NCBI RefSeq assembly: GCF_921293095.1
Contig: NC_060251.1
Coordinates: 89,204,566 to 89,268,565 of the forward strand
Source of the DNA: Ischnura elegans
Lineage: Eukaryota > Arthropoda > Insecta > Odonata > Coenagrionidae
Length of the DNA: 64,000 nt
Direction of reading: 5' to 3'
How positions within the stretch are numbered: the stretch's first letter is position 1; the number at the start of each line of letters is the position of its first letter. The position numbers and the translations under genes are program-made. The notes beneath the pieces were generated by a model. The model did not search any database. It saw only the letters and a list, made by a program, of their open reading frames with translations, and was not told the DNA's origin. Below are positions 13,017-62,753 of the stretch, piece by piece.

Positions 13017-14214
13017 TCAGTTAAGGCCGTAATCCTCGCCCTTCCAGGCTTGATAGGCCATATAGGGAAGTGCCGGGTAAGAAGAAGACCTCAGGTTTCC
13101 CAACCCTGAAGCGAGCAGCTGTGCCTGTCTCCTGGCTGCCTCGATCATAGCCGCATTCCTCCTGGCCTCTTCGGCGCTAACCTTGTGAGCCGGGACCCTG
13201 TGGGCCGGGACTTTGGGCAGCAGACCTGGAGGAGGCGCACCGGCAGATGGCCCCGCGATGGCCGTAGCTGATGGGGCCGAGACCGCAAGACCATTTGCTC
13301 CGACGACCGCGGTACCAGAAGGTGCCGCGGCAGCGACACCTCCGACTCCGGCGAGGGCGATGGCTGCCGGCTTGGCCTGTGCCACGGAAGGATTGCTACC
13401 ACCCGGTCCGATGACCACACTATCCGTGTCTTCTTCGTCTTCCTCCTGTTCCCCAACATCTTCTTCACCTGCGGGACTTGAACCGCTCTCGGTACCGGTA
13501 CCAGAGGACCCAGTCTCGCGTACGCCTACCCTCCTGTTTGGAACATTCCTGGGGATTCCAACGACTGGCAGATACATGTTCCTCCTTAGGATGCGGGAGG
13601 TGATCTCGGCAGCCTGGGCTTCTGCATCTTCCTCCGAAACCAGGGGCGCGACAAAAGCTTCCTGCACAGTTTCCAACTCGGGTTCGTCATCCTCGTCGGC
13701 CGGCTGTTGCTCGGCTGGTTGCTGTTCCTCGGCCTCCTCTGCCGGCTTTTCCTCCTCTTCTTCCTCGGGCTTTTCCTCAGCTTCTTCCGTAGGCTTCTCC
13801 GCTTCCGATGGCTTTTCCGCTACCACTGGCTTCTGTACCGGGACTACTTCGTTGGTTACTACAGGCTGTGGTCCAGGTCCACCACCCGTTTCTTCTTCGG
13901 CTATGGGAAGGAAGGGCTGGCTCACGAGATTGCTCTCCTGGTTGCCTCCGAATAAGCCGCTTAAGAAACCCGGTCTTTGCGGTCTTTCGGGTCTATTTGC
14001 GGGCCTCAGATTCGAGAAAAAGTTTGAGATAGTCTCGAAAAATGTTGGACGATTTTGTCTGAGGTCTTCTGTGCTGGCTGGATAGTACAGGTATTGGACG
14101 CCGGTTGGCACTTTCTCATCCGATGAATCTTCGGCAACTGCAGAGCGATATTGAGGAACTGGTACTGGGTACGCGGCGATTATGTACCCCTGGTTGGGAT
14201 CGCCTTTAACATCA
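13017..14214 (-). CDS. Gene A, terminal exon: Gly/Ala-repeat secreted protein (DUF4774-like)
   Basis: The exon starts after an acceptor ending TTTCGTTTCAG, enters in phase 2 and ends at a stop codon. Joined to exon 17379-17171 it gives an open frame of 468 residues, or 473 with the candidate first exon. Using the 473 numbering, there is a Tyr/Pro-rich start, a strongly acidic Glu/Pro segment at about 208-257 and a second acidic run at about 325-340. At about 341-399 there is a block of GG-x-A-x-A/AP-x-x-A units (for example GVGGVAAAAP and TAIAGPSAG). The basic tail has PAHRVPAHK and a helical EEARRNAAMIEAARR segment. The repeat block matches genes B and C and resembles the insect DUF4774 pattern. 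Function is unknown; secretion is inferred from the signal peptide. High GC explains long antisense frames. Confidence 0.85.
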
Positions 14215-33034: not shown

Positions 33035-33756
33035 TCATCATCATCACTGGTCAACAATCCTAGGATTGATTTGACGCAGCTCTCCACTCAGTTCTCCTAT
33101 CAGCTAATCTTTTCACACCTACGTATTTCTTCTCTTTCACATCTCTCTTTACTTGTTCCATATATTTTGTTCGAGGTCTTCCTTTTCCATTCTTGCCTCC
33201 AACTTGTCCTTCGACGATTGTCTTCATCAGGCCATCATGTCTCAAGATGTGGCCTATAAGGTTGTTCCGTCTTCTTATTAAGGTTTTCATGAGGCTTTTC
33301 TTCTCTCCTACTCTTCTTAGGACTTCCTCGTTACTAACTCGGTCGATCCATTTGATTTTCATCATTCTTCTGAAGCAACACATTTCAAAGGCCTCTATCC
33401 TTGATTTCTCCGCTGCGGTCATTGTCCATGCCTCGCTTCCGTATAGGAGCGTACTCCAGGTGTAGGTTCTTATGAATTGTTTCTTTACTTCCATATTTAA
33501 GTTTCCCGCTGTAAGCAGGTCTCTCTTTTGGTGGAATGCTCTCTTCGCCTGGGCTATTCTGCTGATAATTTCTTTCTTGCTTCTCCCGTCACTTGCTATC
33601 TTGCTTCCCAAATAACAGAATTCATCCACCTCTATCAGTTTTTGCCTCCCTATTTTAATGTTGGTCTTGACTTCTTCTCTTCTGCTGCATGCTAAGATCT
33701 TGGTTTTCTTCGTGCTTATTTTCAGTTGATATCTACTTAATACCCTACCCATATTA
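33035..33756 (-). mobile_element. LINE family 2, 3' third with intact C-terminal reading frame
   Basis: A 230-residue frame (33752-33060) is uninterrupted. It encodes the region after the reverse-transcriptase palm: KISTKKTKILAC, a YLGSKI motif, LLYGSEAWTMT, a Cys/Arg/Met region, RVSNEEVLRRVGEKKSLM, GHILRHDGLMKTI, and a C-terminus ending EWRAASNQS before a stop. This is typical of RTE-like insect LINEs, though clade assignment is by recollection. After the stop, a 25-nt tail leads into a TGATGATGATG repeat at 33035, the usual 3' end of such elements. The 5' end is truncated near 33756. The last 140 bp differ from the nested copy at 46778-46921 by a single base, so the family was active recently. 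Confidence 0.9.
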
Positions 33757-45019: not shown

Positions 45020-46309
45020 CAGAATAATTGTTTTGCCGAGATAGAGAAGGTTTTTTCCTGTCTATTTTTTCCTGAAATTTTTAAATATTTAAGTAACTAC
45101 CTGAGAGCATATATGTTCCTTTTGTATTCCATAATTGCGCTCTCGCTTCAGCGCGTTTATTAGATGCATCCAATGCTTAAATGAAAAATTTCTAACATGA
45201 GATCGACTGTAAAGTATTTATTCCCATGCCCCCTGTGTATAAAATAATGAAGTTTTCGAGAAATATTGGTGGAAAGACGTAAGTAGAAATGAAAGTAGAT
45301 ATGTGCATGATATTGACACTCATATCTCCCCAAAAGTCAAGTGTCATGCTGTAGAGTAGCATTTTTCTTAGTCTATCTGCGGCTTTAACCTTGAAGGAAT
45401 GTCTTTTAAGTTTTCTCAGTAGACCAATCATTATTGCGGTATGTTTGTCATGTTATACTTTTTGCCGATAGCTTTTACCGTTAAACGCCGCAGGAGAGAA
45501 ATTATACCGGAAAAAAAGCTTGAAGAGACACTTAATATAAGTTTCATAACTCAGGAAGGTTTTTTTTTGCCCTTTCGCTGATTTTTTTGTGTGTAATTTA
45601 GTTCTTCAAATTGGCAACATCCCCCCGAATTTTGTGTTGGCTCTTGGAAAAAATGAATGGCGCCGCAAAATTATAGTTATTTCTAATGTACATCAAGCAG
45701 CATCAGAACATTCCTGTCGTTTCATTTGATTTTTATTCCAAGATGGATAAAGTACATTTAAAGAACTAATTGTGCGTATGAAATTCTTTTTAAAGTGAAA
45801 ACGGAAACTTTTCGTATTCAAAAATTGGGGTTGATTAATTTGAGATGTTTAGTGTATTATATTTGTTTAGTGTCTCATTGATTTGAATATAAATATTAAA
45901 GACGGTATAATTAATGACATCTTATCCTTATGAGTCCAGAGTTATCGTTTAAATAATATTTCATCAAAGACATCACTTGGAGTTAAGATAAAGCGCCGTT
46001 CAATACCTAGTTAAACTCAATTCTCTGTGTAAACTCTACCAAATGAAAAAATAAAAATACGGTTGCACACAAAAATGTATTCATCTTTCTTAAAGGTAAT
46101 AAATTAGCAATACTTTGCCAGCACCAAAGGGTCGAAATTTATGTAATTTTTGTTTACCGTTTAATGCAGGTGTATTTCTACGAAATTTGGCGTAGGGAAA
46201 ATGAAATAAAAATACTAGTTTTATGCTCAGCATCTAATGCATTGAAAATGGAAATTAAAAATTGCTTTCCTAGAATAAACGCCAATTAGGTATGCAGCTC
46301 TTGCAGTCA
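45020..46309. other. AT-rich, no feature recognised
   Basis: No coding exon or repeat end recognised. Confidence 0.4.
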
Positions 46310-47470
46310 TTTTTTATATTTTACAAAGCCACTGATTCGTTATCTGTATATGTTTCCCAGACTACGAAAGTGAGGATAGTGGAGGGAGAATCTGGGTGGG
46401 CAAGAATTGGCCGGGGAGTGAGACAAGGTTGTCCATTGTGGCCGCTGCTTTTTAAAGTATACGCTGAGAAGATGGTAAGAGAAGCGTGGGACGAGTTGGA
46501 AGCTGGAGTGAAAGTGGGTGGAATGACGTTTAAATTGGTAAGGTTCGCGGATGATAAGGCACTTGTACGCCAGTCAGCGATGGGACTGCAGGCTCTACTG
46601 GATATGTTAGACGAGCAGTGCAAGGAGTATGGGATGAGTATTAATCACAAGAAGACCAAGTTAATGCGGTTTTGTAAAGCATCACCAGTGAGGAATATAA
46701 GACTCAAGTTGAAGTAGGTGGGGAGAAGCTTGAGCAGGTAGAGCAATTCAACCATTTAGGCAGCACATTAGAAGAAACCTCGAACAAAATATATGGAACA
46801 AGTAAAGAGAGATGTGAAAGAGAAGAAATACGTAGGTGTGAAAAGATTAGCTGATAGGAGAACTGAGTGGAGAGCTGCGTCAAATCAATCGTAGGATTGT
46901 TGACCAGTGATGATGATGATGATTAGAAGAAAACGGATACAGTAGTAAGGACCTCAGGAAGCGAATTGCATTAGCAAAGAAGGCGTTCATGAACAGGAGG
47001 GAGCTTCTGAGAGGGTCGTTATATTAGAGTTTAAAGGAAAGGTTAATCAAGTGTTTGATCTGGAGTGTAGCTCTTTACGGTGCGGAAACGTGGACACTGA
47101 GGAAGGAGGACGAGAGAAGATTGGAGGCATTCGAGATGTGGGTATGGAGAATGTGAAACGGACAGAGAGGAGGAGAAACGACGAAGTGCTAGACAAAGTG
47201 GGTGAGAAGAGGCAACTTTTAGATGATATACGAAGGACACGGTAGATTTGGATGGAGTGAGTACTAAGCGGGTAGAGGATGTTGAAACAGTGTTAGAGGG
47301 TAGAATGTTAGATAAACGAGGGAGGGGAAGGGATATATTAGGATTTTTGGATAGATTGAAAGTGAGTAGGCCTTACAGTGAATTAAAGAAGGTAGTGCTG
47401 GCAGGAAAGAGAGGCTCCCAGATTACTTCTTTAGTACTCCATGGAAACCTGCTTTAATCGGTAGCATACT
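46310..47470 (+). mobile_element. LINE family 1, 5'-truncated copy with reverse-transcriptase core
   Basis: A frame at 46292-46717 covers part of the reverse-transcriptase palm: RGVRQGCPLWPLLF, then the catalytic FADD in VRFADDKALV, then GMSINHKKTKLM. The usual residue after FADD is not K, so a substitution is likely. After a frameshift near 46700 it continues (EKLEQVEQFNHLGS) to the insertion at 46778, and resumes after 46932 with KRIALAKKAF, ALYGAETWT and RRLEAFEMWVW-like blocks in several frames. The 3' end (GGCTCCCAGATTACTTC ... TTAATCGGTAG) matches copies at 20925 and 47768. It is inactive because of frameshifts and the nested insertion. Confidence 0.85.
46778..46932 (+). mobile_element. 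Nested LINE family 2 3' end inside LINE family 1, with 11-bp target duplication
   Basis: The insert begins in codons for P-R-T-K-Y-M-E-Q and runs through EWRAASNQS, a stop and the TGATGATGATG tail. ATTAGAAGAAA occurs at 46767-46777 and again at 46922-46932. Reading across the duplication without the insert restores the LINE family 1 frame (TLEEN-GYSS), confirming the insertion site. Only about 144 bp of the element is present, typical of extreme 5' truncation. Confidence 0.92.
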
Positions 47471-49885: not shown

Positions 49886-52800
49886 AATATGGAGTGTGCA
49901 CAGTTTCTTGTCGTGAGAGCAAATGGTTGACTAAAGCTTTATTTATCTCAGTGATGATGGTGTTATTCTAAATAAAATTAGATAAAACCATCTCAACTCC
50001 CTTACAGGTTGTGTACAATTGTGCAAACACATGTGTGTAATTTTATTCTACACGTGTTCAGCCGGGGTTGAATAATTTCGTCTTAAGCTCTTATCAATAT
50101 AAAGATGATAATCTCATCTTTATATTGAAAATCAGTGAAAAGAGTTTTACATCAACATTAAACCACACTGAAATGAATTTTTTCCCCCTTAAATTGTATT
50201 CCTAAGAATTTTAAACAATGATATGAGTCAACCTCTTTATCCTAGGTTATTCAAGTCACGTTTTTGGGGAAAGTGCCTCATAAGTTAGTAATACTATAGT
50301 TATCGCTGAGGTTACTCCAGGTGCGCATGCATATATTTGAACTGCAACGTTTCACTATAACGAAAACCAACATTTACTCGACCTTAGTGTCAAAATGCCA
50401 AAATTTTATACTTTTAATTCGTAATCTACTCTTATAAAACTCTTTCTCTGCTAAGCCCATCCTTTTTTTCTTCCCTCGATCCATCATATAAGTCACCCCA
50501 GCTTTTATCTCTTACAACATTTTTCTCTTTCCGTCCATCTTAGCAAGAACTTCCTCGTTCATGTTTTCCTCGTCCTTAGCACCTTCGACGTATCTCTCCC
50601 CGTCTTTCTCGCGCCTGCACATAAAGTTCCCCAGACGCTTGTATGCGCAGAAGGGACGCTTTTAAATCTCTGATTGTGGTAAGGGAAAGGGATGGGAAAG
50701 TGAATGTATTGCCGTTATAGAGGTCATCATAGCGCTTTAAGAACAAATTCAATTTGGAGTCATTTCTGAGGAACCCAAGTAACCCACCACTCGGTAATAA
50801 AAAACAGAATGCGTTAAAATAAAAAAAACTAGTACGATAGAGACGACGGTAAAGGTCAAAATAAAAAACACCCTGGTGTCAGGGGTTGAAAAGGAGTTGA
50901 AAAAGTCACAAGTTGTTACCGTCTGAATGCATGGTAATAAATGGTAGATATGTATGCATTGAAGAAAGCAAAAACGTGATGAAGTAATAGAAATACCCTC
51001 GCGTCAATCATGAATAAACCATTATATATTATCATCGTCTTATATATTATCAATCTTTTCGGGATGTCAAAAACCCCACTTCTCTCGAACCACGATGCAT
51101 TTGGTGTTGTTTTTTATACGATCACATTTTTTGCGACACTGTCTGTTTGATTGAGAAAGTGACACACATGATCGTAAGAAGTGTAATAAGGTGCAAGTAT
51201 ATTTTTTGTGCAATCCTGTCGGCTTCTTAAGCATTTCCTCGGGGGTTTGCTTCGGGTGCAGTGATTTCGACATTGTGAATTACTATGTCCAAGCCGATCT
51301 TTCTAATACTAAGTTACTCTCTCTTGAATCATATCCCCCAATCCGATTATTCAAGTTTTTCCTTTCCGAAGCTAAAAATTTATATCCACTGTAAATTGTT
51401 TCCAATAGTCAGAAATAAATACTTTTCACTTGTTAACAAAGCATTGCAAAAGTATTCCTGATGCCTGTAACTATTATGTTAGGCATTAGGCAGCACAAAG
51501 TGCAATTTGCTCTCAAATATTAAAAGATATTATACACGACATTGCAGGGAGTTTTGAGGAAGCAATTTTTTAATGCAAAAAACAATGATTTGCTAATGCA
51601 CAAACAAATGACAAGAATTTTTAAGGGATCTGTAAAATTAGATGAAAATAAAAATGAAATAAACCGGTTTATTTTATTTTTCCGGAGAAACCAAAATGTC
51701 TCGAAACATGTTATATATATTATGAGTCGAGTAAATTCGGTAACCTAGTCCTTAAATACTGAATTTCGTTGGAAAAAAAATCACCATGTCTGGAAATTAG
51801 GTTCTCGTGGACGATAATGGCAATCGATGTCATTCCTTGTATGCGCAGCTGCGGCCATACCACCCGGAACATATTAATACAATGACTTACTGCACAAAAA
51901 ATTAATTAACATTTTATTCAAAACGTTAGCATTCCTCTTAATGCAATACCTTTGTTCATAATTTTTACATCGCTCTGTTAAAAACATTCATGCGGCAATG
52001 AAGCCGTTGATATTCCGTCTCCTAGCATAGAATATCCGTTGAATGGCCACAGATTAACAAAAAGGCTTTCCGTGCATAGTCAACCCACTCAAATTCTTGG
52101 TGGAAATACAGGTGGTGCATTTTTTCTACTGAGTTGGAAATAATAAGTTGAAATTTGTTTTGGCTATAATTTAGCCTATCTATTCAGCCATCGGACTGAG
52201 GTCCCGATTCCTACAGCACCTGTAGCGGGGTGAAGTAGGAAGTGACATGTAAACTCTTCTCCACTCTCTCCTCCAAACCTCTGTGATGAATAGCTTAGAT
52301 GGTACGAAGAATGCCAAAGCTTACCCATGGCTGATAAATGCCTGCCCACTACATCTGGACTTTTAGAAAGAGCCCCCTCCAGTTTCTTCATTGTCGCAAT
52401 GCTGTAAACTTCTGAGTAGGTTACATCCGTTCATTTTCATTAATTTCTATCAAAACAAGTGTATTAGTAATTTTACTGCTACAATTTTGTGACGTTTCCC
52501 ATTAACTAAACGTTACTATTACTCTTAATAAATAATAATTTTATTTTATCTGAAAAAATTTTCTCTGAAGAAATGCTCATTTTTATCGACGGCTTGAAAA
52601 TTCATGCATTAATTATCTCAGAATTAATGAAAGATTCCTTGTGAAGGCCTGTTTGGAAATCAAAAGCCTAAAGGATGGCCTAAATAATCATTTCAAAGTC
52701 AGCTGATTTATGAAAAATATCTGGGCTCAATAATTTACAGCTGAAAATCCAATAAGCGTTAGCTAATGTTTTACCGTAAGTTTATGCGTATTTGATCAAT

Positions 52801-53936
52801 GTGGAGGGGAAAAATGTCATACTGTTATGGTAATTACTGTAATTCCCTCCTCTACTTTTAATTTTTGGGATTTTTCGTTTAGGGGATCAATAGAAAGCAT
52901 CATTTGTTCCATTGTTTTTAAGATTATTTATTTTCATTCTACACTCATTTTATCACAAAAATACCTAAAGAATATTTAGAAGCTACCTCTGTTAGCATTT
53001 ATCTGTTGCTCTAATTTTTTGCCTTCATTTAAAATTTCCAGTTTAGATATGACTTTTATTAAATATTACTTTCCTGTTAGCAGTAGCACGATGATTATAT
53101 GGCTCTGTTTACGGCATTGAAATCAACATCAGCTAACGTGTTGGGCTTGTATCATAAAAATAAAAATGAAGCTTTTTTTCTCGGAACCTCTGTTGTCTTA
53201 CTGTTTTATCCATGCGCTCTAATACCTCTATTTCACATGAACACTTGGTGGTTGCAGGAATTGACTCGTAGAAGTTGAACTAAGTTTATTTTAACTAATA
53301 ACAAATTGAATGCGGACAATTATTAGCATTTCACATTCAATATACCGGGAATATTTGAATGACGAACCTCAACACACCTAGGAGGCACGAAGAACCAACC
53401 CAGCTAGAATTGCGCTCTTCCAAAGCCATTTCCAATCCATCTTAAATTAAGATTTACTGTTCACACTTCTGCTGCTGAACTCTACCGTTGTGCCTTAGTT
53501 TTGAAACTTAAAGTCATTATGAAATCCTAAATGCTGTTCAAAGCGTAATAAATGATTTTGGAATCATAAATTTTTCACATTCTTTCATAGTAATAACAAT
53601 GTTCATGGAAGGGTTAGTGATTTTTTTTTAGATGGAAAAGTGAGAATTCGGATGATATAGGTATATTCAGTGATCAAAGGTATGAAGAAAAAATGATTCA
53701 ATAACATTTAAAATGAAAGCTTAAATAGGAAACTAGTTGAATTCTCCGTCGACCAAATACTAGAATTACCATCTAAACAAAACCACCTCAATCAATTTCC
53801 GCAATAATATATGAAATCGACCCTTATTTCAGTATCTGTGTGCTATTATCAGTGTGTCGTGGAGGCCAAAGTACGCAATACGAGAAGAATGCGTTTCAGC
53901 AGTAATGTTTGGGTTGGACGACTTTGATAATTATAC
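49886..53936. other. AT-rich, no feature recognised
   Basis: About 4 kb with only short frames (51191, 51542, 52176 and others) lacking domains or coding composition. 52176-52391 is slightly GC-richer but unrecognised. Confidence 0.4.
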
Positions 53937-54327
53937 TCATACGCTGAACCTTGGGACAGTGTAATATTATAAATAATAATAATAACATTTTTGGGTGAAA
54001 GTGAGGAAAGAAAAAAATGTCTACATGGTATCGCCGGATAATTTAAAATTCCTAAGGGTTTTGACCAATAATGACTATGTATATTATGAGTATTTATCAT
54101 GATGTATTCCTGTAAGTTCCGCGATATGACTCCATAGGCAATCAAAAGTTTTCCTAGTCTATAATTTCAATACTAAACCCCGGTAAAAGTTGGATGGCGG
54201 TACGAACATAGCCTTGAACCGGTGTAATATTATTAAACATATGATTTACAAAGTAATATAGGCGAAAATGAGGGATAAAAATGGCTACAAGATATCACCG
54301 GATAATTTCAAATTCCTATAGGTTGTG

Positions 54328-55312
54328 ATCTCTGCATTTCTCCAGGGTTTTCTTCCGCGTCAGATTGTTGGTTGACAACAGTTTCGCTGGCTATCCTGCC
54401 AGCGTCTTCAGGTCGAAGGTGTCGCTCTCGAAGCTCTCGCTCTCGGTGTCGAAGATGATATCTCCCTCTCCACGGAGATAAAGCACCTCACTACGGCACT
54501 GCAGAGAAATGGCTATAGGAGAGAATTGGTCCTTAAAAGGACCACGAAGGAGGAGGAAAAGCGACGCAAGGCCACCATTGAAAACCAGAGTGATGACGTT
54601 GGAGAAGAAGAATCGTCAAGGAAGCTATACGTCACCATCCCTTTCATTGCTGGAACGTCAGAGAGGATCGCCAGAATATTAAAAAAGCACGACGTGGTCA
54701 CCAGATATAACTGTGTGACCAAGATAAGAGACTTCCTCCCCGGGCCCAAGGATATCATTCCTCAAGAACTGCATGAGGGGGTATACAAGGTGCCCTGCTC
54801 CTGCGGAAAATCCTACATAGGGGAAACTTGCCGCTCCATGCATGTGAGGATTAAAGAACATCAGAGGGCGACCAAGAACAAGCAGTTTCAACTCTCTGCC
54901 ATCGCCGAACATGCATGGTCGGAACCCGGCCATGACATTAAATTTGAGGAGAAGAAACTTTTAGTTAAGGAGTGCCGATACTTCCCTAGACAAATCAGGG
55001 AAGCAATAGAAATTCAAAAAACACCTTTGAATTTCAATAGAGAAGATGGATACTTCCTTCACAGCGCCTGTAAAAGAGTGATCAAAGAGTGAGCCAACCA
55101 GAGAGAAGCACCCAGTCAGACAGCCAATCACAGTGCAGCTCCCATCCAGCCTACAGTATATAAGCGAGGCAGAAACCAACAGCCGACACCTTCGACCTGA
55201 AGACGCTGGCAGGATAGCCAGCGAAACTGTTGTCAACCAACAATCTGACGCGGAAGAAAACCCTGGAGAAATGCAGAGATCAAACCATCGCCGCGGAAAC
55301 CTACGCTCTCCC
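54328..55312 (+). mobile_element. Penelope-like element, truncated, with inverted arms and 10-bp target duplication
   Basis: ATAGGTTGTG occurs on both sides (54318-54327 and 55313-55322). Inside, a 98-bp inverted pair (54327-54424 and 55184-55281) brackets the C-terminal part of a Penelope-like protein. About 30 bp of extra sequence follows the right arm. The insertion splits one unit of the tandem array downstream of gene B. The structure, with partial inverted terminal sequence and strong 5' truncation, is usual for Penelope-like elements. Confidence 0.85.
54424..55092 (+). CDS. Penelope-like element protein, C-terminal part with GIY-YIG endonuclease
   Basis: An uninterrupted frame runs from the left arm to a stop at 55090-55092; it has no genuine start because the element is truncated. 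Early sequence (HLTTALQRNGY) and a later IPFIAGTSERIARILKKH block match the linker after the Penelope reverse transcriptase. Then comes the GIY-YIG endonuclease: GVY at about 54778, CSCGKSYIG with YIG at about 54814, a catalytic-type Arg in MHVRIKEH, a His/Cys finger region, and a catalytic-type Glu in REAIEIQK, followed by LNFNREDGY. Key residues look intact. No reverse transcriptase remains, so it cannot move by itself. Confidence 0.85.
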   Translation, partial: ALEALALGVEDDISLSTEIKHLTTALQRNGYRRELVLKRTTKEEEKRRKATIENQSDDVGEEESSRKLYVTIPFIAGTSERIARILKKHDVVTRYNCVTKIRDFLPGPKDIIPQELHEGVYKVPCSCGKSYIGETCRSMHVRIKEHQRATKNKQFQLSAIAEHAWSEPGHDIKFEEKKLLVKECRYFPRQIREAIEIQKTPLNFNREDGYFLHSACKRVIKE

Positions 55313-55592
55313 ATAGGTTGTGTTTGTGTTTGCTGCTTGCGTGAGTTTTTGATTATGATGCGTTCCGGCCAGTTCCATGATATGACTTCAGAGGCAATTA
55401 CAACTTCTCCTAGTCTAAAATTTCAGTACTAATCCCTGGAAAAGCTGGGTTGCAGTACAAGCATAGTCTTGGATCGGAATAATATTGTTGATGATAAAAT
55501 TTACAATATTTTTGTGAAAATGAGAGATTTAACCAATGTCCACAAGGTATCGGTGGGTAAGTTAAAATTCTTAGGGGTTATGACCAAATATT

Positions 55593-55598
55593 TTTATT
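55593..55598 (-). terminator. Candidate polyadenylation signal of gene B
   Basis: AATAAA on the minus strand, about 85 nt past the gene B stop codon and inside the first downstream tandem unit. Confidence 0.45.
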
Positions 55599-55682
55599 TA
55601 TTATCAATATATTTTGACCAGATAGTTAGACATACAAGATATGACGTTAGAGGCAATCAAAAGTTTTCCTAGTCCATAATTT

Positions 55683-56157
55683 CTATACTAATCCCTGATA
55701 AAAGCTGGGAGGTGGTGCGAACATTGCCTGCGGGTAGAGCATATAGTGGAAGACGACCGGAGGCGCGGGGGTCTCTGGTTTGGATGATTCTCCTTCTTCG
55801 CTGGCTTCCTCGACCTCCGGGGTCTCTTCCGTCTGGCCCGCTTGGTCTCCATCCTGGGATCCTTGGCCCCCTTCAGGGTTCAGGAAGATGCCTGGCTTGT
55901 CCGCTCCCGGTCCCGCGACAGCCACTGCAATCGGTCGGGCGATGGCCAGTCCTCCTGGGCCGACCACGGCGACACCTTGCGGTTTGGAGACGGCCACGCC
56001 GCCCAGCCCTGCGGTCGCGATTCCGATCGGCTGCGCTTGTGCCACGGACTTTTCGCCCGCGTTGGCCGAAACCACCTCAGAGGCCTCGACGACCTCGCCA
56101 TCGCCCGCCGCCTTGCGGATGATGTGGTCCAGGCCCTCGGCACCTCTGTGCTCCAGT
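55683..56157 (-). CDS. Gene B, terminal exon: Gly/Ala-repeat protein (DUF4774-like)
   Basis: Starts after acceptor TTCATCTTACAG, enters in phase 2 (A completes AG from the exon ending at 57733, giving Arg) and stops at 55683. Counting from the first complete visible codon, residues 137-293. There is a short helical start (LEHRGAEGLDHIIRKAAG), then the repeat block at about 175-221 with AQAQPIGIATAG, GLGGVAVSKPQG, VAVVGPGGLAIARP and VAVAGPGAD. An acidic Gln/Glu/Ser/Pro stretch follows, then a Tyr/Phe/Pro tail ending in FYQGLV. Gene A has the same SVAQA lead-in and repeat register, so the genes are paralogues. The 3' end and flank have been copied in tandem downstream. Confidence 0.85.
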
Positions 56158-57732
56158 CTGTAAGATGAAGAGTTATGTTACAATGATGGTCAATTTAGAG
56201 ACAAAAGTGGATTAACACACTCAATGCTGAAAATGTGCATAAAAGTAATCACCTGGACAAGGCAAAATTTTTGTGACTGTAGGAGCGGTAAATGATTGAG
56301 TAAAAATTTTCAAAAAAGGAAATAGGTGAGATCAGTAAAAATGTTCCACACGGAAATTGCAACGTTCCACTCTTCCTGCTGAAGACATACATAGACAGTG
56401 AACAAATCTCCTGATGAGCCACATATAGCCCAGAAGAACTCAAAATGTAAAGTATATTATGGAAAAGAAACATGTAGATATATTGCCATGAATGCAAGAC
56501 TCCAGCATCGAATATGTTAAAAACCATAAATGAATTAAATGGAAACGACAGATATTAAATTAATGATATATTGAGGACTGAAATTGAGATAACCAAGCTT
56601 GGACAGCTATGTAGTTACCAACAGTTACGGTATCAGTTAAAGCGATTTCGAAGAGGTAAGCTTCAAGTACTGCAATACTTGAACACAGCTTGATTATAAT
56701 AAATATAAATGGCAAGATAAGAAGTTTCCATGAAAACTGCAATGCGTAACATGTATGTTTCATATATTTCATTCTGAAGATTTTAAAAGATAGAAAAGAC
56801 ATTGAGGCTTAACACTGCAATGAAGAATATTTGATCCACTCGAAACATATTCGTCAGTATGATGTGGTGAACATCGTGTTGCGAACTCAATTTCAAGTTC
56901 AGGCAAAAACAGTAGTTGAGAGAGATTGATTGTCGAATGTATAGGTATAAGCATCCCTAGCTTCACTTATTATAAGTGACCATGTAAACCTGTACTCAGA
57001 CACATAAAATATGTATTCATAAATATCCACGCCTAATTATCTTACACAGATTTGCTCTAACACGTCGAATCACATGCTTAGATGGTGAATAGTAGGGTTG
57101 CATTGGGAAGACTCAGCCATATAAATAAATCGGATCGCTGTTTGAAATTTTTCGTTGAGGTTGGTAGTATGAGTATGAATTACATAAAATTATGACTTCC
57201 TCCTTATGACCTTCCGTATATTTTAAGATATTCAGAGTGGTGTGAAATTTGAATTCTCGCGATTTTTAAAATGCCTAAAATTCCTTTTTCCATTGCGACA
57301 TACCTCACTGGAACTATTATTAGAGGCTGTTGATTCTTCAAATTAATGTGTTAGCTCATGAATATATTCAAAATTATTCTCTCACTTTTTCCCTTATTAT
57401 TTTCTTTCAAATTTATGAAATCTGTCTCTTATGCATTATTTTTTTCTGTTTTCCCTCTACCTTGAACAAGCATCTTTCCATTTTGTGCACCCTACCGGGG
57501 TGTTGATCCTCGGATTATTGTGATGATATTAATCTTGACTCAAGATTATTTAATGAAAAAGTTCAAGGACATTTATATCACTCAATATGCGCTAATTATC
57601 ACACAGAGCAGCATTAGGTCTTTCCAATCACTAATACCAGCATTAATGAACCAATTTAAATTTCCTGATGAATGAATATAGAGAGTATAACACAGCTGAA
57701 CATCTCAGCCCTATTTGTCAATATTCCTCTAC
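56158..57732 (-). other. Intron between gene B exons
   Basis: AT-rich with no repeat or coding block recognised. Donor side TTCGAG|GTAGAG is a relatively weak match and acceptor side TTCATCTTACAG a good one; the phase match supports the junction. Confidence 0.7.
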
Positions 57733-58140
57733 CTCGAATCTCCTTCTTCCTTTTCCCATAGTCTCTTAATGATGAGCTCTGGCAAAGCGATGGCCGTTCC
57801 CCCAGGGCCGGCCACGGCCGACACCTCCGGCAGGTAGATGACCCGGTCTTCCTTTCGACGAAGGAAGGCGAGCGATAAGGGCCGAGCGACGGCTCTGCCA
57901 CCTACGCCCGCCTTAGCGTGTGCTTTGGGCATTAGAACGAGGACAGAGGCATTCGGTATGGGCCGTATGACCCCGTCCTCTGGCGCCGGCAGCAGGGCCT
58001 CGTCGTCCTCGGCCGCCGAAGCCCCTGGCCTTGCCGTCACGATCACAGAGTCGTCCCCAATGTCCTGGGGCTTTTCTGTTGATAACTGGGGCTCTTCTGT
58101 CGACTCCTCGACGGCAGACTCTTCTCCATCCTCCTCTGAC
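57733..58140 (-). CDS. Gene B, first visible exon
   Basis: Acceptor TTCCAATCTCAG, donor TTCGAG|GTAGAG; phase 2 at both ends. Residues 1-135 of the visible protein. It opens with an acidic Ser/Glu-rich segment (SEEDGEESAVEESTEE). At about 73-87 comes an AKAGVGGRAVARP repeat-like unit, then a basic LRRKEDR stretch, and at about 107-122 a second unit, AVAGPGGTAIALPEL. So the repeat module is split over two exons in gene B, unlike A and C. A start codon and signal peptide are missing, so at least one upstream exon is expected; none was identified between here and gene C. The acceptor region is repeated upstream. Confidence 0.8.
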
Positions 58141-59440
58141 CTGAGATTGGAATGGTCCAATGTGCTGGTCACTTTCTCTCACTCTTTTTTTGATGACATT
58201 AATCCATTTCCTTAATAACCTCATGCACATGCAGCAATTTCTTAAAGCAGGTTATTCAGCCTTTCGAACAATATAAAATTCCCATGCGTTTGGTTTTCAA
58301 TGAACAGCATCCATTGAAGAAATTCCTTCGGTATAATTTCCATATCCCTTCTGCTCGTCCTCAGTTGGCCTCATTGTAATGCAATATTGCTGATACTCCG
58401 ACCGTAGAAAGGAGGTTTGCGAGTGATAGTCCCAATATCTCAAATATTTATTGTGTATAAAAGCGATTAAACAACAGCTTCATGCATGTGCTGTTAACCG
58501 TCAAAGTAGGTTTAAATCTCTTTGACCTTCTTGCAAATTTATATTTGATGGTATTTGTTTAAATAAAAGGCGATAGTTAAATGAATCTTTAAGGTGTGAC
58601 GTTTCAGCTAATTTCCACCTTCTGTCTTAGTTTCTGCTATCAATCCAGTACTGAAAGACTCTCCCATACCGTTCCTCAACTTGAGATTGAAAGTGTTCTA
58701 AGGGCGGTTCACATTTACCTCCATGTTACATAGGCTCAAGTATAAAATGGGGTATAGGCTGGACATCATCATGCACAGAAAGCAATTCTCCAAACCACCA
58801 TTCCACCTCGTTTCTGGGATCCCTCCGGATACACCTCGTTGATGACCATTTTTCGTCCACCCATAACCTTAGATTGGACAGGTCCAAGCTGAAGATCACT
58901 TTGTCTCACTCACTCTTTCATAAAGTTAATTCCCAAATAGCGTCATGCACATGCAGCAGTTACTTAAAGCAGCTTCATTCCTTCTTTGGCACTCTTGCAA
59001 TTTTCCATGAGTTTTAATTCATTGAAACTTAACCAAAATAAATTAGGCAAATCCTTCTTAAGAGACTTTTAGGATAGCCTTTACACACACTCTTAGGTCT
59101 ATATACCTTCTCCTACGTCATGACGTCATTGAATATTTCTAGCTTTTCCCCAATCTGACATTGGAAAGGTTCAAAATGGTGGTTACATTATTTTACGAAT
59201 CAATCTTATGTACACGTGTGATTTCTCAGCAGCCTCATATGAAGTGAATAAATCAACAAATCAAGGTGACTTCTGTGTGTAGACTTTTTGAAAATCCCCA
59301 TTTCATGCTAGCGGTCAAACAAAAAAGTACGCAATTGTTTAGGAGAGACTAAAGAGGTAATTTACAACTCATCCCTGAAAAGTTTATGTTAACCCTTGGT
59401 AAGAAGCTATTTCACACTTTTCTTGACCTGAGTTTGGATC
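58141..59440 (-). repeat. Repeated acceptor-like blocks upstream of gene B's first visible exon
   Basis: The functional acceptor block (about 58141-58260) recurs at about 58872-58985: the two share GCTGCATGTGCATGA, GAGTGAG, AAAGTGA and CCAATCT(C/A)AG in the same order. Shorter relatives of the TTCCAATCTCAG end sit at about 58681, 59152 and 59428. Following the copy at 58871, the minus strand is open in phase 2 for about 48 codons (to about 58725), whereas the frames after 58681, 59152 and 59428 close within a few codons. The segment therefore looks like partly decayed duplicates of an exon boundary. Confidence 0.6.
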
Positions 59441-61147: not shown

Positions 61148-61640
61148 AGAATAACAGCAGACTGAAGAGATAAATCTACCACTTACAGATTTTATAAACA
61201 ATAAGAGTTTATATCTTCACTTAAAGACTACTACAATTACTTGTTGAAAGCTGGATTCTTCCTGTGGAATATTAGGATGTCTTTTTATAATATTAGTGAG
61301 GACGAACCATTGCTGGAATTCTCTTCCTGCAATGTTGTGGTCTAATCAGCCAATTCCTGAACAATTCACTTCTTTTCTCCGCAATTATCGTAGAATAAAT
61401 AGCTGACTGAAGAAGAAACTCAACCACTTTCAGATTTTTAAACAATAAGAGTGGATGACTCCTATGCAAGGCTAATACAACTACGTTTTAAACGATTGAG
61501 CCTTCCTGTGGGATATTTGTCTGTCTTTTTATAATATCACGCACTATTCCTGGAATTGTCTTCTTGAAATGTTATAGGATAAACAGTAAGTTCCTGAACA
61601 ATTCAATTCTTTTCTCCGTAATTATCGTAATAGATGATCG
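61148..61640 (-). repeat. Tandem duplication (~244-bp units) of the 3' end of gene C
   Basis: Two head-to-tail units, near 61148-61391 and 61392-61640, share CTACAATTAC or ATACAACTAC, CTTCCTGTGG, TTTTTATAATAT, TTCCTGAACAATTCA and TTTTCTCCG(C/T)AATTATCGTA. The last motif spans gene C's final codons (YDNYGEKN and stop), so the outer unit carries a decayed copy of the C-terminus (YDNCGEK in minus-strand reading near 61375-61395). The unit includes the 3' end of the coding exon plus 3' flank. Confidence 0.8.
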
Positions 61641-62644
61641 GGCCACGGGCCACTAGTACGCCATCCAACTGATCCGACTTCCCGCGTGCCGTTTTTCCCT
61701 CGCCGTGCGACACGTAGACTCCCTGGTTCCTCTGCGACATCACCCTTCCTCCTGGCCCAACCACTGCCACAGCCCCTGGTCTTGTGTACGCCACTCCACC
61801 AGGGCCCACTATCGCCGTGCCACCCCTGCCCGCCGTGGCGACCCCTCCAGGGCCGGCAATGGCAACACCGCCACCCCTCACAACGACCTTTGTTACGTAT
61901 CCACTGCCCTCCATGGCTATCTCAGCCTCTGAATTGGAACCAACGTCTTCGATGGCGTCTCTACTAGGGCCCTTTGGTCTGCAGACGTCCGCCTCTTGGC
62001 CGTACTCGAACAGTGGTCCGCTGCCGACGAAGGCCTGGTAAGGGTCGTTGATGAGTAGGGGAAAGTAGTTTGCCAGGAACCACTGGCGGCTCCTTCGGTC
62101 CAGGGTTGCAGGAACGTAGGGGGCCAGGCGGAGTGGTTGTTGACCATTCCCCTTTTTGGTTCCCTGGGTGTCGGATAGTGGGACGTAGACAACGGGAGGG
62201 ATGCTGGGGACAGGGCTATCTTCTTTATCCTCGCCCACGTCGTTCTGCTCTGGTTCTGGGACTGGTTGTTGGCTGACTGGTTGGTTCTTTCCGGTTGGTG
62301 GCTGGTGAGCGTTCCTGGCGTGAGGAACGCTTCGGTGTTCCTTCTGTGGTCCAGTGTGCCTCATGAGCCTCTCCCGGAAGGCCTGGTCTGCCACGGAACG
62401 CTGCTTCTCCAGTCTCAGGGTGAAGTCTGACTTAGGCGTGGTAGATGTCGTCGTCGTCGTGGTGCTCATCGCCGCAGTGGTGCCTGTTGTTTGGATTGAG
62501 GCCTTTGGTGCCGGATGGGTGCTCTCTGACTTGGTTACGACAACCTTCGATTCTGAAATCTCTTGATCAACCGCATCATGGTTATTGACCCGTACATCCT
62601 CTTCCTTTTCCGGCTTCCCGTGTGCCGAAACAGCCTCCAAGAGC
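61603..62644 (-). CDS. Gene C, terminal exon: Gly/Ala-repeat protein (DUF4774-like)
   Basis: Starts after acceptor TTTATCCGATACAG, phase 2 (G completes AG of the exon ending at 62754, giving Arg), and stops at 61603. Counting from the first codon of the 26-nt exon, the visible protein has 355 residues. In order: an acidic/Val-rich start; a Thr-rich run at about 60-78; a Pro/Gln-rich linker at about 118-160; a Tyr/Phe-rich region with RQWFLANYFPLLINDPYQ at about 195-212; then the repeat block at about 262-308 with GGGVAIAGPGGVATAG, RGGTAIVGPGGVAY and GAVAVVGPGG. The tail ends YYDNYGEKN. This is the cleanest repeat of the three. Function unknown. Confidence 0.85.
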
Positions 62645-62753
62645 CTGTATCGGATAAAATGAAACACCTCTTAAATAAGCTTTTCACTCCTGATACTAAT
62701 TCTAAATATGTCCGATAGAATTTGCGAGGTATAAGTATTTTATTATTAATTAC
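62645..62753 (-). other. Short intron of gene C
   Basis: A 109-nt intron from GATCAG|GTAATT to TTTATCCGATACAG, phase 2, AT-rich. Confidence 0.75.

Follow-up and report, generated by a model that had tools for sequence, protein, structure and literature searches.

Gene B and its terminal exon

Gene B lies on the minus strand of the window (the whole stretch of Ischnura elegans DNA analysed here, 64,000 nucleotides) and is a DUF4774 gene, its product scoring 48.1 bits against PF15999, for which the Pfam cut-off is 25. The stop codon is at 55683 and the C terminus of the protein reads QAMFAPPPSFYQGLV*. Read by eye, the terminal exon has a putative splice acceptor, CTTACAG/A, and by a reading done by hand the intron ahead of this DUF4774 exon leaves one base to it. 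When the gene B protein was searched against the genome, two other places matched, with matches ending at residues 65 and 59 of 130, and at neither was there a match for the C-terminal tail. This search hit ~13.2–13.4 kb and ~61.7–61.9 kb of the window. Further open reading frames with AVAGPGG-like repeats are found on the minus strand at 13017–14111, 57729–58172, and 61603–62667, the second of which is not among the matches listed for the gene B protein. Together with gene B they suggest, from their sequence, a cluster of DUF4774 genes, Pfam having been run among these frames on gene B and 57729–58172 only. Within a limited literature set, we found no paper on DUF4774 in insects. The features discussed below are collected in Table 1.

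Table 1. Features at the 3' end of gene B, in window coordinates
Feature	Position	Strand	Basis
Gene B terminal exon	55683..56157	-	Pfam PF15999, E 1e-12; open frame of 164 aa
Unit 1, the gene's own end (last ~15 codons plus 3' flank)	55467..55730	-	Unit alignments; AATAAA at 55602 and 55598
Unit 2, first part	55323..55471	-	Unit alignments; one-base deletion disrupts tail frame
Unit 2, second part, past the insertion	54212..54327	-	Unit alignments
Unit 3	53949..54216	-	Unit alignments; tail frame open, KAMFVPPSNFYRGLVLKL*
5'-truncated Penelope-like retroelement splitting unit 2, in antisense orientation relative to gene B	54328..55309	+	Genome matches; RT domain in longer copy
Inverted pLTR arm without tail	54328..54424	-	100% complementary to 55184–55282; flank comparison
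Filler (29 bp) between inverted arm and truncated body	54425..54453		Letters; matches of other copies
C-terminal part of element ORF, GIY-YIG-like motif YKVPCSCGKSYIGETCRS	54526..55092	+	Nearly the same sequence ends the RT-bearing ORF of longer copy L005
One-sided tail at element 3' end	55283..55309	+	Beyond one arm only
Target-site duplication, left copy ATAGGTTGTG	54318..54327		Flank comparison
Target-site duplication, right copy ATAGGTTGTG	55313..55322		Flank comparison

Three diverged units in tandem

The end of gene B is itself a unit of ~263 bp, made of the last ~15 codons and ~216 bp of 3' flank, and it runs on unbroken from the DUF4774 exon. It is the first of three such units arranged head to tail in the minus direction, so that two copies lie downstream of the gene's own end. 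The first-pass annotation, which had seen the 3' end of gene B copied in tandem, is confirmed in that observation, but it placed all three units after the stop codon, and its unit size of 242–258 bp falls below the size measured here. The homology of the units is clear from local alignment scores of 92 (units 1 and 2), 155 (units 1 and 3), and 158 (units 2 and 3), against maxima of 30, 34, and 34, respectively, in 300 single-base shuffles per pair. Identity over aligned bases is 174/260 (67%), 189/265 (71%), and 192/261 (74%) in the same order, with K2P distances of 0.44, 0.36, and 0.33. The minus-strand reading of unit 3, KAMFVPPSNFYRGLVLKL, is related to the gene's own QAMFAPPPSFYQGLV, as had been noticed earlier, and a CAAG/CAGG-like border, seen by eye in the alignment, is common to the units. 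Measured in the first part of the unit, the spacing is ~1256 bp from unit 3 to unit 2 versus ~260 bp from unit 2 to unit 1, and once a script has removed the insertion and one copy of the target-site duplication, the alignment of unit 2 with unit 3 continues through the joint, giving 192 identities. The array is absent from the Tandem Repeats Finder output, as expected of units so diverged and interrupted by an insertion. A MAFFT alignment with just the first part of unit 2 gave nothing beyond the pairwise unit alignments.

The units appear to be confined to this locus. In the assembly of 1,722,721,009 bases (110 contigs), searching with unit 1 together with the beginning of unit 2 listed three matches, and searching with unit 3 plus the latter part of unit 2 listed two, all of them at the gene B locus. 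Among the matches listed in these 1.72 Gb, no copy of the unit thus lies outside the window. The search skips very common words and scores the best candidates only, and with the unit 1 query it passed over the second part of unit 2, so that weak copies can be missed; that the unit has no copies elsewhere in the assembly is likely rather than absolute. Inside the window, BLAST with E up to 0.1 gave five other rows, which are matches of 20–35 bases. Within the sensitivity of the genome search, homologous head-to-tail units are found at one locus, and the array looks like a local tandem duplication rather than a genome-wide repeat. The converse, that an interspersed or satellite repeat was captured by the gene as its end, could draw on the unmatched C-terminal tail at the two other places found with the protein, but with every listed match inside the window, and even allowing for missed weak copies, we regard it as highly improbable.

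A Penelope-like element within the middle unit

The interval 53937..55740 had been described as the array, and the units do lie there, but ~980 of its 1804 bp, over half, belong to a transposable element that had gone unmentioned and that splits unit 2. Judged by its sequence, this insertion is a recent, 5'-truncated Penelope-like retroelement. Its ends carry inverted arms that are complementary at 99/99 positions (54326–54424 vs. 55184–55282 in the repeat finder, the left arm including two further complementary bases), and it is flanked by a target-site duplication of 10 exact bases, ATAGGTTGTG on both sides, or 12/13 when extended. The inverted arm is separated from the truncated body by a filler that seems built of slipped pieces of arm sequence, CTCTCGAAG/GTGTCGAAG-like, as if produced by template slippage. 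Other copies of the element match the arm (query 1–99) and the body (query 129 on) separately.

Copies are abundant and many are near-identical. The genome search with the insertion gave 94 matches, the window's own included, among the best 40 scored of 2409 candidate places. Among those listed, 42 non-self matches exceed 380 bits, 18 of them 99% identical and the other 24 at 93–97%, and 33 of the 42 begin at query base 129, the point at which the body of the window copy is truncated. The first-pass annotation had named a genome-wide interspersed repeat as the finding that would overturn its reading; the insertion is such a repeat, whereas the unit, by the matches listed, is not. One longer copy (L005), 99% identical to the window copy over query 129–984, has RVT_1 in an ORF of 481 aa (E 1.8e-13), while the window copy, being truncated, is without a reverse transcriptase domain. 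At the C-terminal end of the element ORF we see by eye a GIY-YIG-like motif, CSCGKSYIGETCRS. Pfam with E up to 1 returned no GIY-YIG match in the ORF of the window or in that of L005, and on the C-terminal ORF of the element it gave only rows below cut-off. An outward inverted pair of arms, one with the ~27-bp tail and one without, is present at 4 of 12 loci (L008, L011, L014, and L004, which is the window's own copy); at the other eight, inspected with 1.5 kb of flank only, the inverted pair was not seen. By eye, the flanks share 11 bases at L008 and 12 at L014, and L011 sits within a simple repeat.

This layout is already published for Penelope elements: PMC3846280 describes inverted pLTRs, one of which may bear a 31-bp tail, and target-site duplications whose length is 8, 9, or 10 bp and which some copies lack. 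Penelope-like elements with inverted pLTRs, such as Pen2a_Av of Adineta vaga (PMC3846280), share with our element an inverted pLTR without tail, a tail at the other end, a short target-site duplication, an ORF bearing a reverse transcriptase (here in the longer copy), and a GIY-YIG-like end (here by eye). Unlike these, the window copy is 5' truncated and has a 29-bp filler, and its arm is 97–99 bp versus 181–218 bp.

The pLTR also holds, at 55190–55260 on the plus strand, a series CTGAAGA..GCTGGC..GCCAGC..GAAAC that resembles by eye a hammerhead core with one extra base. Hammerhead ribozymes occur in the pLTRs of many Penelope-like elements and are not required of all. Rfam gave no hammerhead match in 52000–58000 (E up to 1) or in 55050–55330 (E up to 5); the sole row in the latter, IhtA, is not meaningful, scoring 15 bits where the gathering score is 76. 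Elsewhere in the window, the ORFs 46292–46717 (plus strand) and 33060–33752 (minus strand) resemble, by their motifs, fragments of non-LTR reverse transcriptases and may be such.

Function and origin of the extra units

One earlier proposal was that alternative ends or polyadenylation sites for gene B could lie in the array. The units do follow gene B immediately on its own strand, 3' flank included, and unit 3 has weaker hexamer variants (GATAAA at 54098, AATATA at 54085, and AATACA at 54108), but the sequence otherwise lends this proposal little support. AATAAA occurs in unit 1 only, ~81 bases past the stop codon; neither AATAAA nor ATTAAA is present in units 2 and 3, and the next AATAAA on the minus strand is at 53290. 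We therefore consider a supply of alternative 3' ends very unlikely. That units 2 and 3 would serve as alternative terminal coding exons is barely credible. By eye, a CAAG that is a candidate acceptor stands ahead of both, and the tail frame is open in unit 3, but it is disrupted in unit 2, and unit 1 runs on from the DUF4774 exon without a break. Moreover, the CAAG acceptor before unit 3 would give LCSYRHPTFTGV* (frame 0) rather than the AMF frame, and unit 3 as a terminal exon would probably be out of frame, because of the one base that, by hand reading, the intron leaves to a terminal exon. The open frame itself says little, since a 15-codon frame stayed open in 64% of 20,000 simulated tails, in which each site was changed with probability 0.24 by substitutions alone, without indels.

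Two results count, at the level of sequence, against a reading of pure neutral drift. The units are not evenly conserved along their length (P for the variance 0.005, 0.0012, and 0.0022 in windows of 20, 30, and 40 columns), although their best-conserved window is not out of the ordinary (P 0.42, 0.30, and 0.08, respectively), and the tail of unit 3 has five synonymous changes on 10.2 sites versus five non-synonymous changes on 34.8 (Fisher P 0.029), both tests resting on few sites. Constraint on the unit belonging to the gene, together with doubtful alignment in the gap-rich middle, could explain both the uneven conservation and the synonymous excess, and selection on gene B's own copy could by itself yield the excess in unit 3. 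It is also conceivable, but most improbable in our view, that selection has maintained the tail and near 3' flank, the best-conserved part of the units, as a repeated 3' element of gene B, unit 3 still being able to serve as a coding or regulatory end once unit 2 had been split.

We favor, with a probability of roughly 0.88, an old tandem duplication followed by neutral decay and a later Penelope-like insertion, that is, ordinary genome wear. A segment of ~263 bp taking in the final codons of gene B and its 3' flank would have been duplicated twice in tandem, probably by replication slippage or unequal exchange, and the additional copies would have drifted since, with no evident function. A 5'-truncated Penelope-like retrotransposon with an inverted pLTR would have landed in the middle copy much later, making a short target-site duplication. 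The insertion is probably the younger of the two events because the units differ by K2P distances of 0.33–0.44, whereas the arms of the element match at 99/99 and many of its copies are 99% identical. Partial gene duplication, in which a 3' end is duplicated by slippage or unequal exchange, is a known process, and the array resembles it in its head-to-tail units, its single locus, its divergence, and its one broken frame; set against such local duplications there is nothing unusual here, just three units. The earlier suggestion that the array is a trace of unequal exchange fits the head-to-tail order, the listing at one locus only, and the CAAG/CAGG-like border. This odd-looking stretch would then be the outcome of two ordinary processes in succession, and the value of recognizing it is mainly for annotation: 54328–55309 should be annotated as a mobile element, belonging neither to the gene nor to the array.
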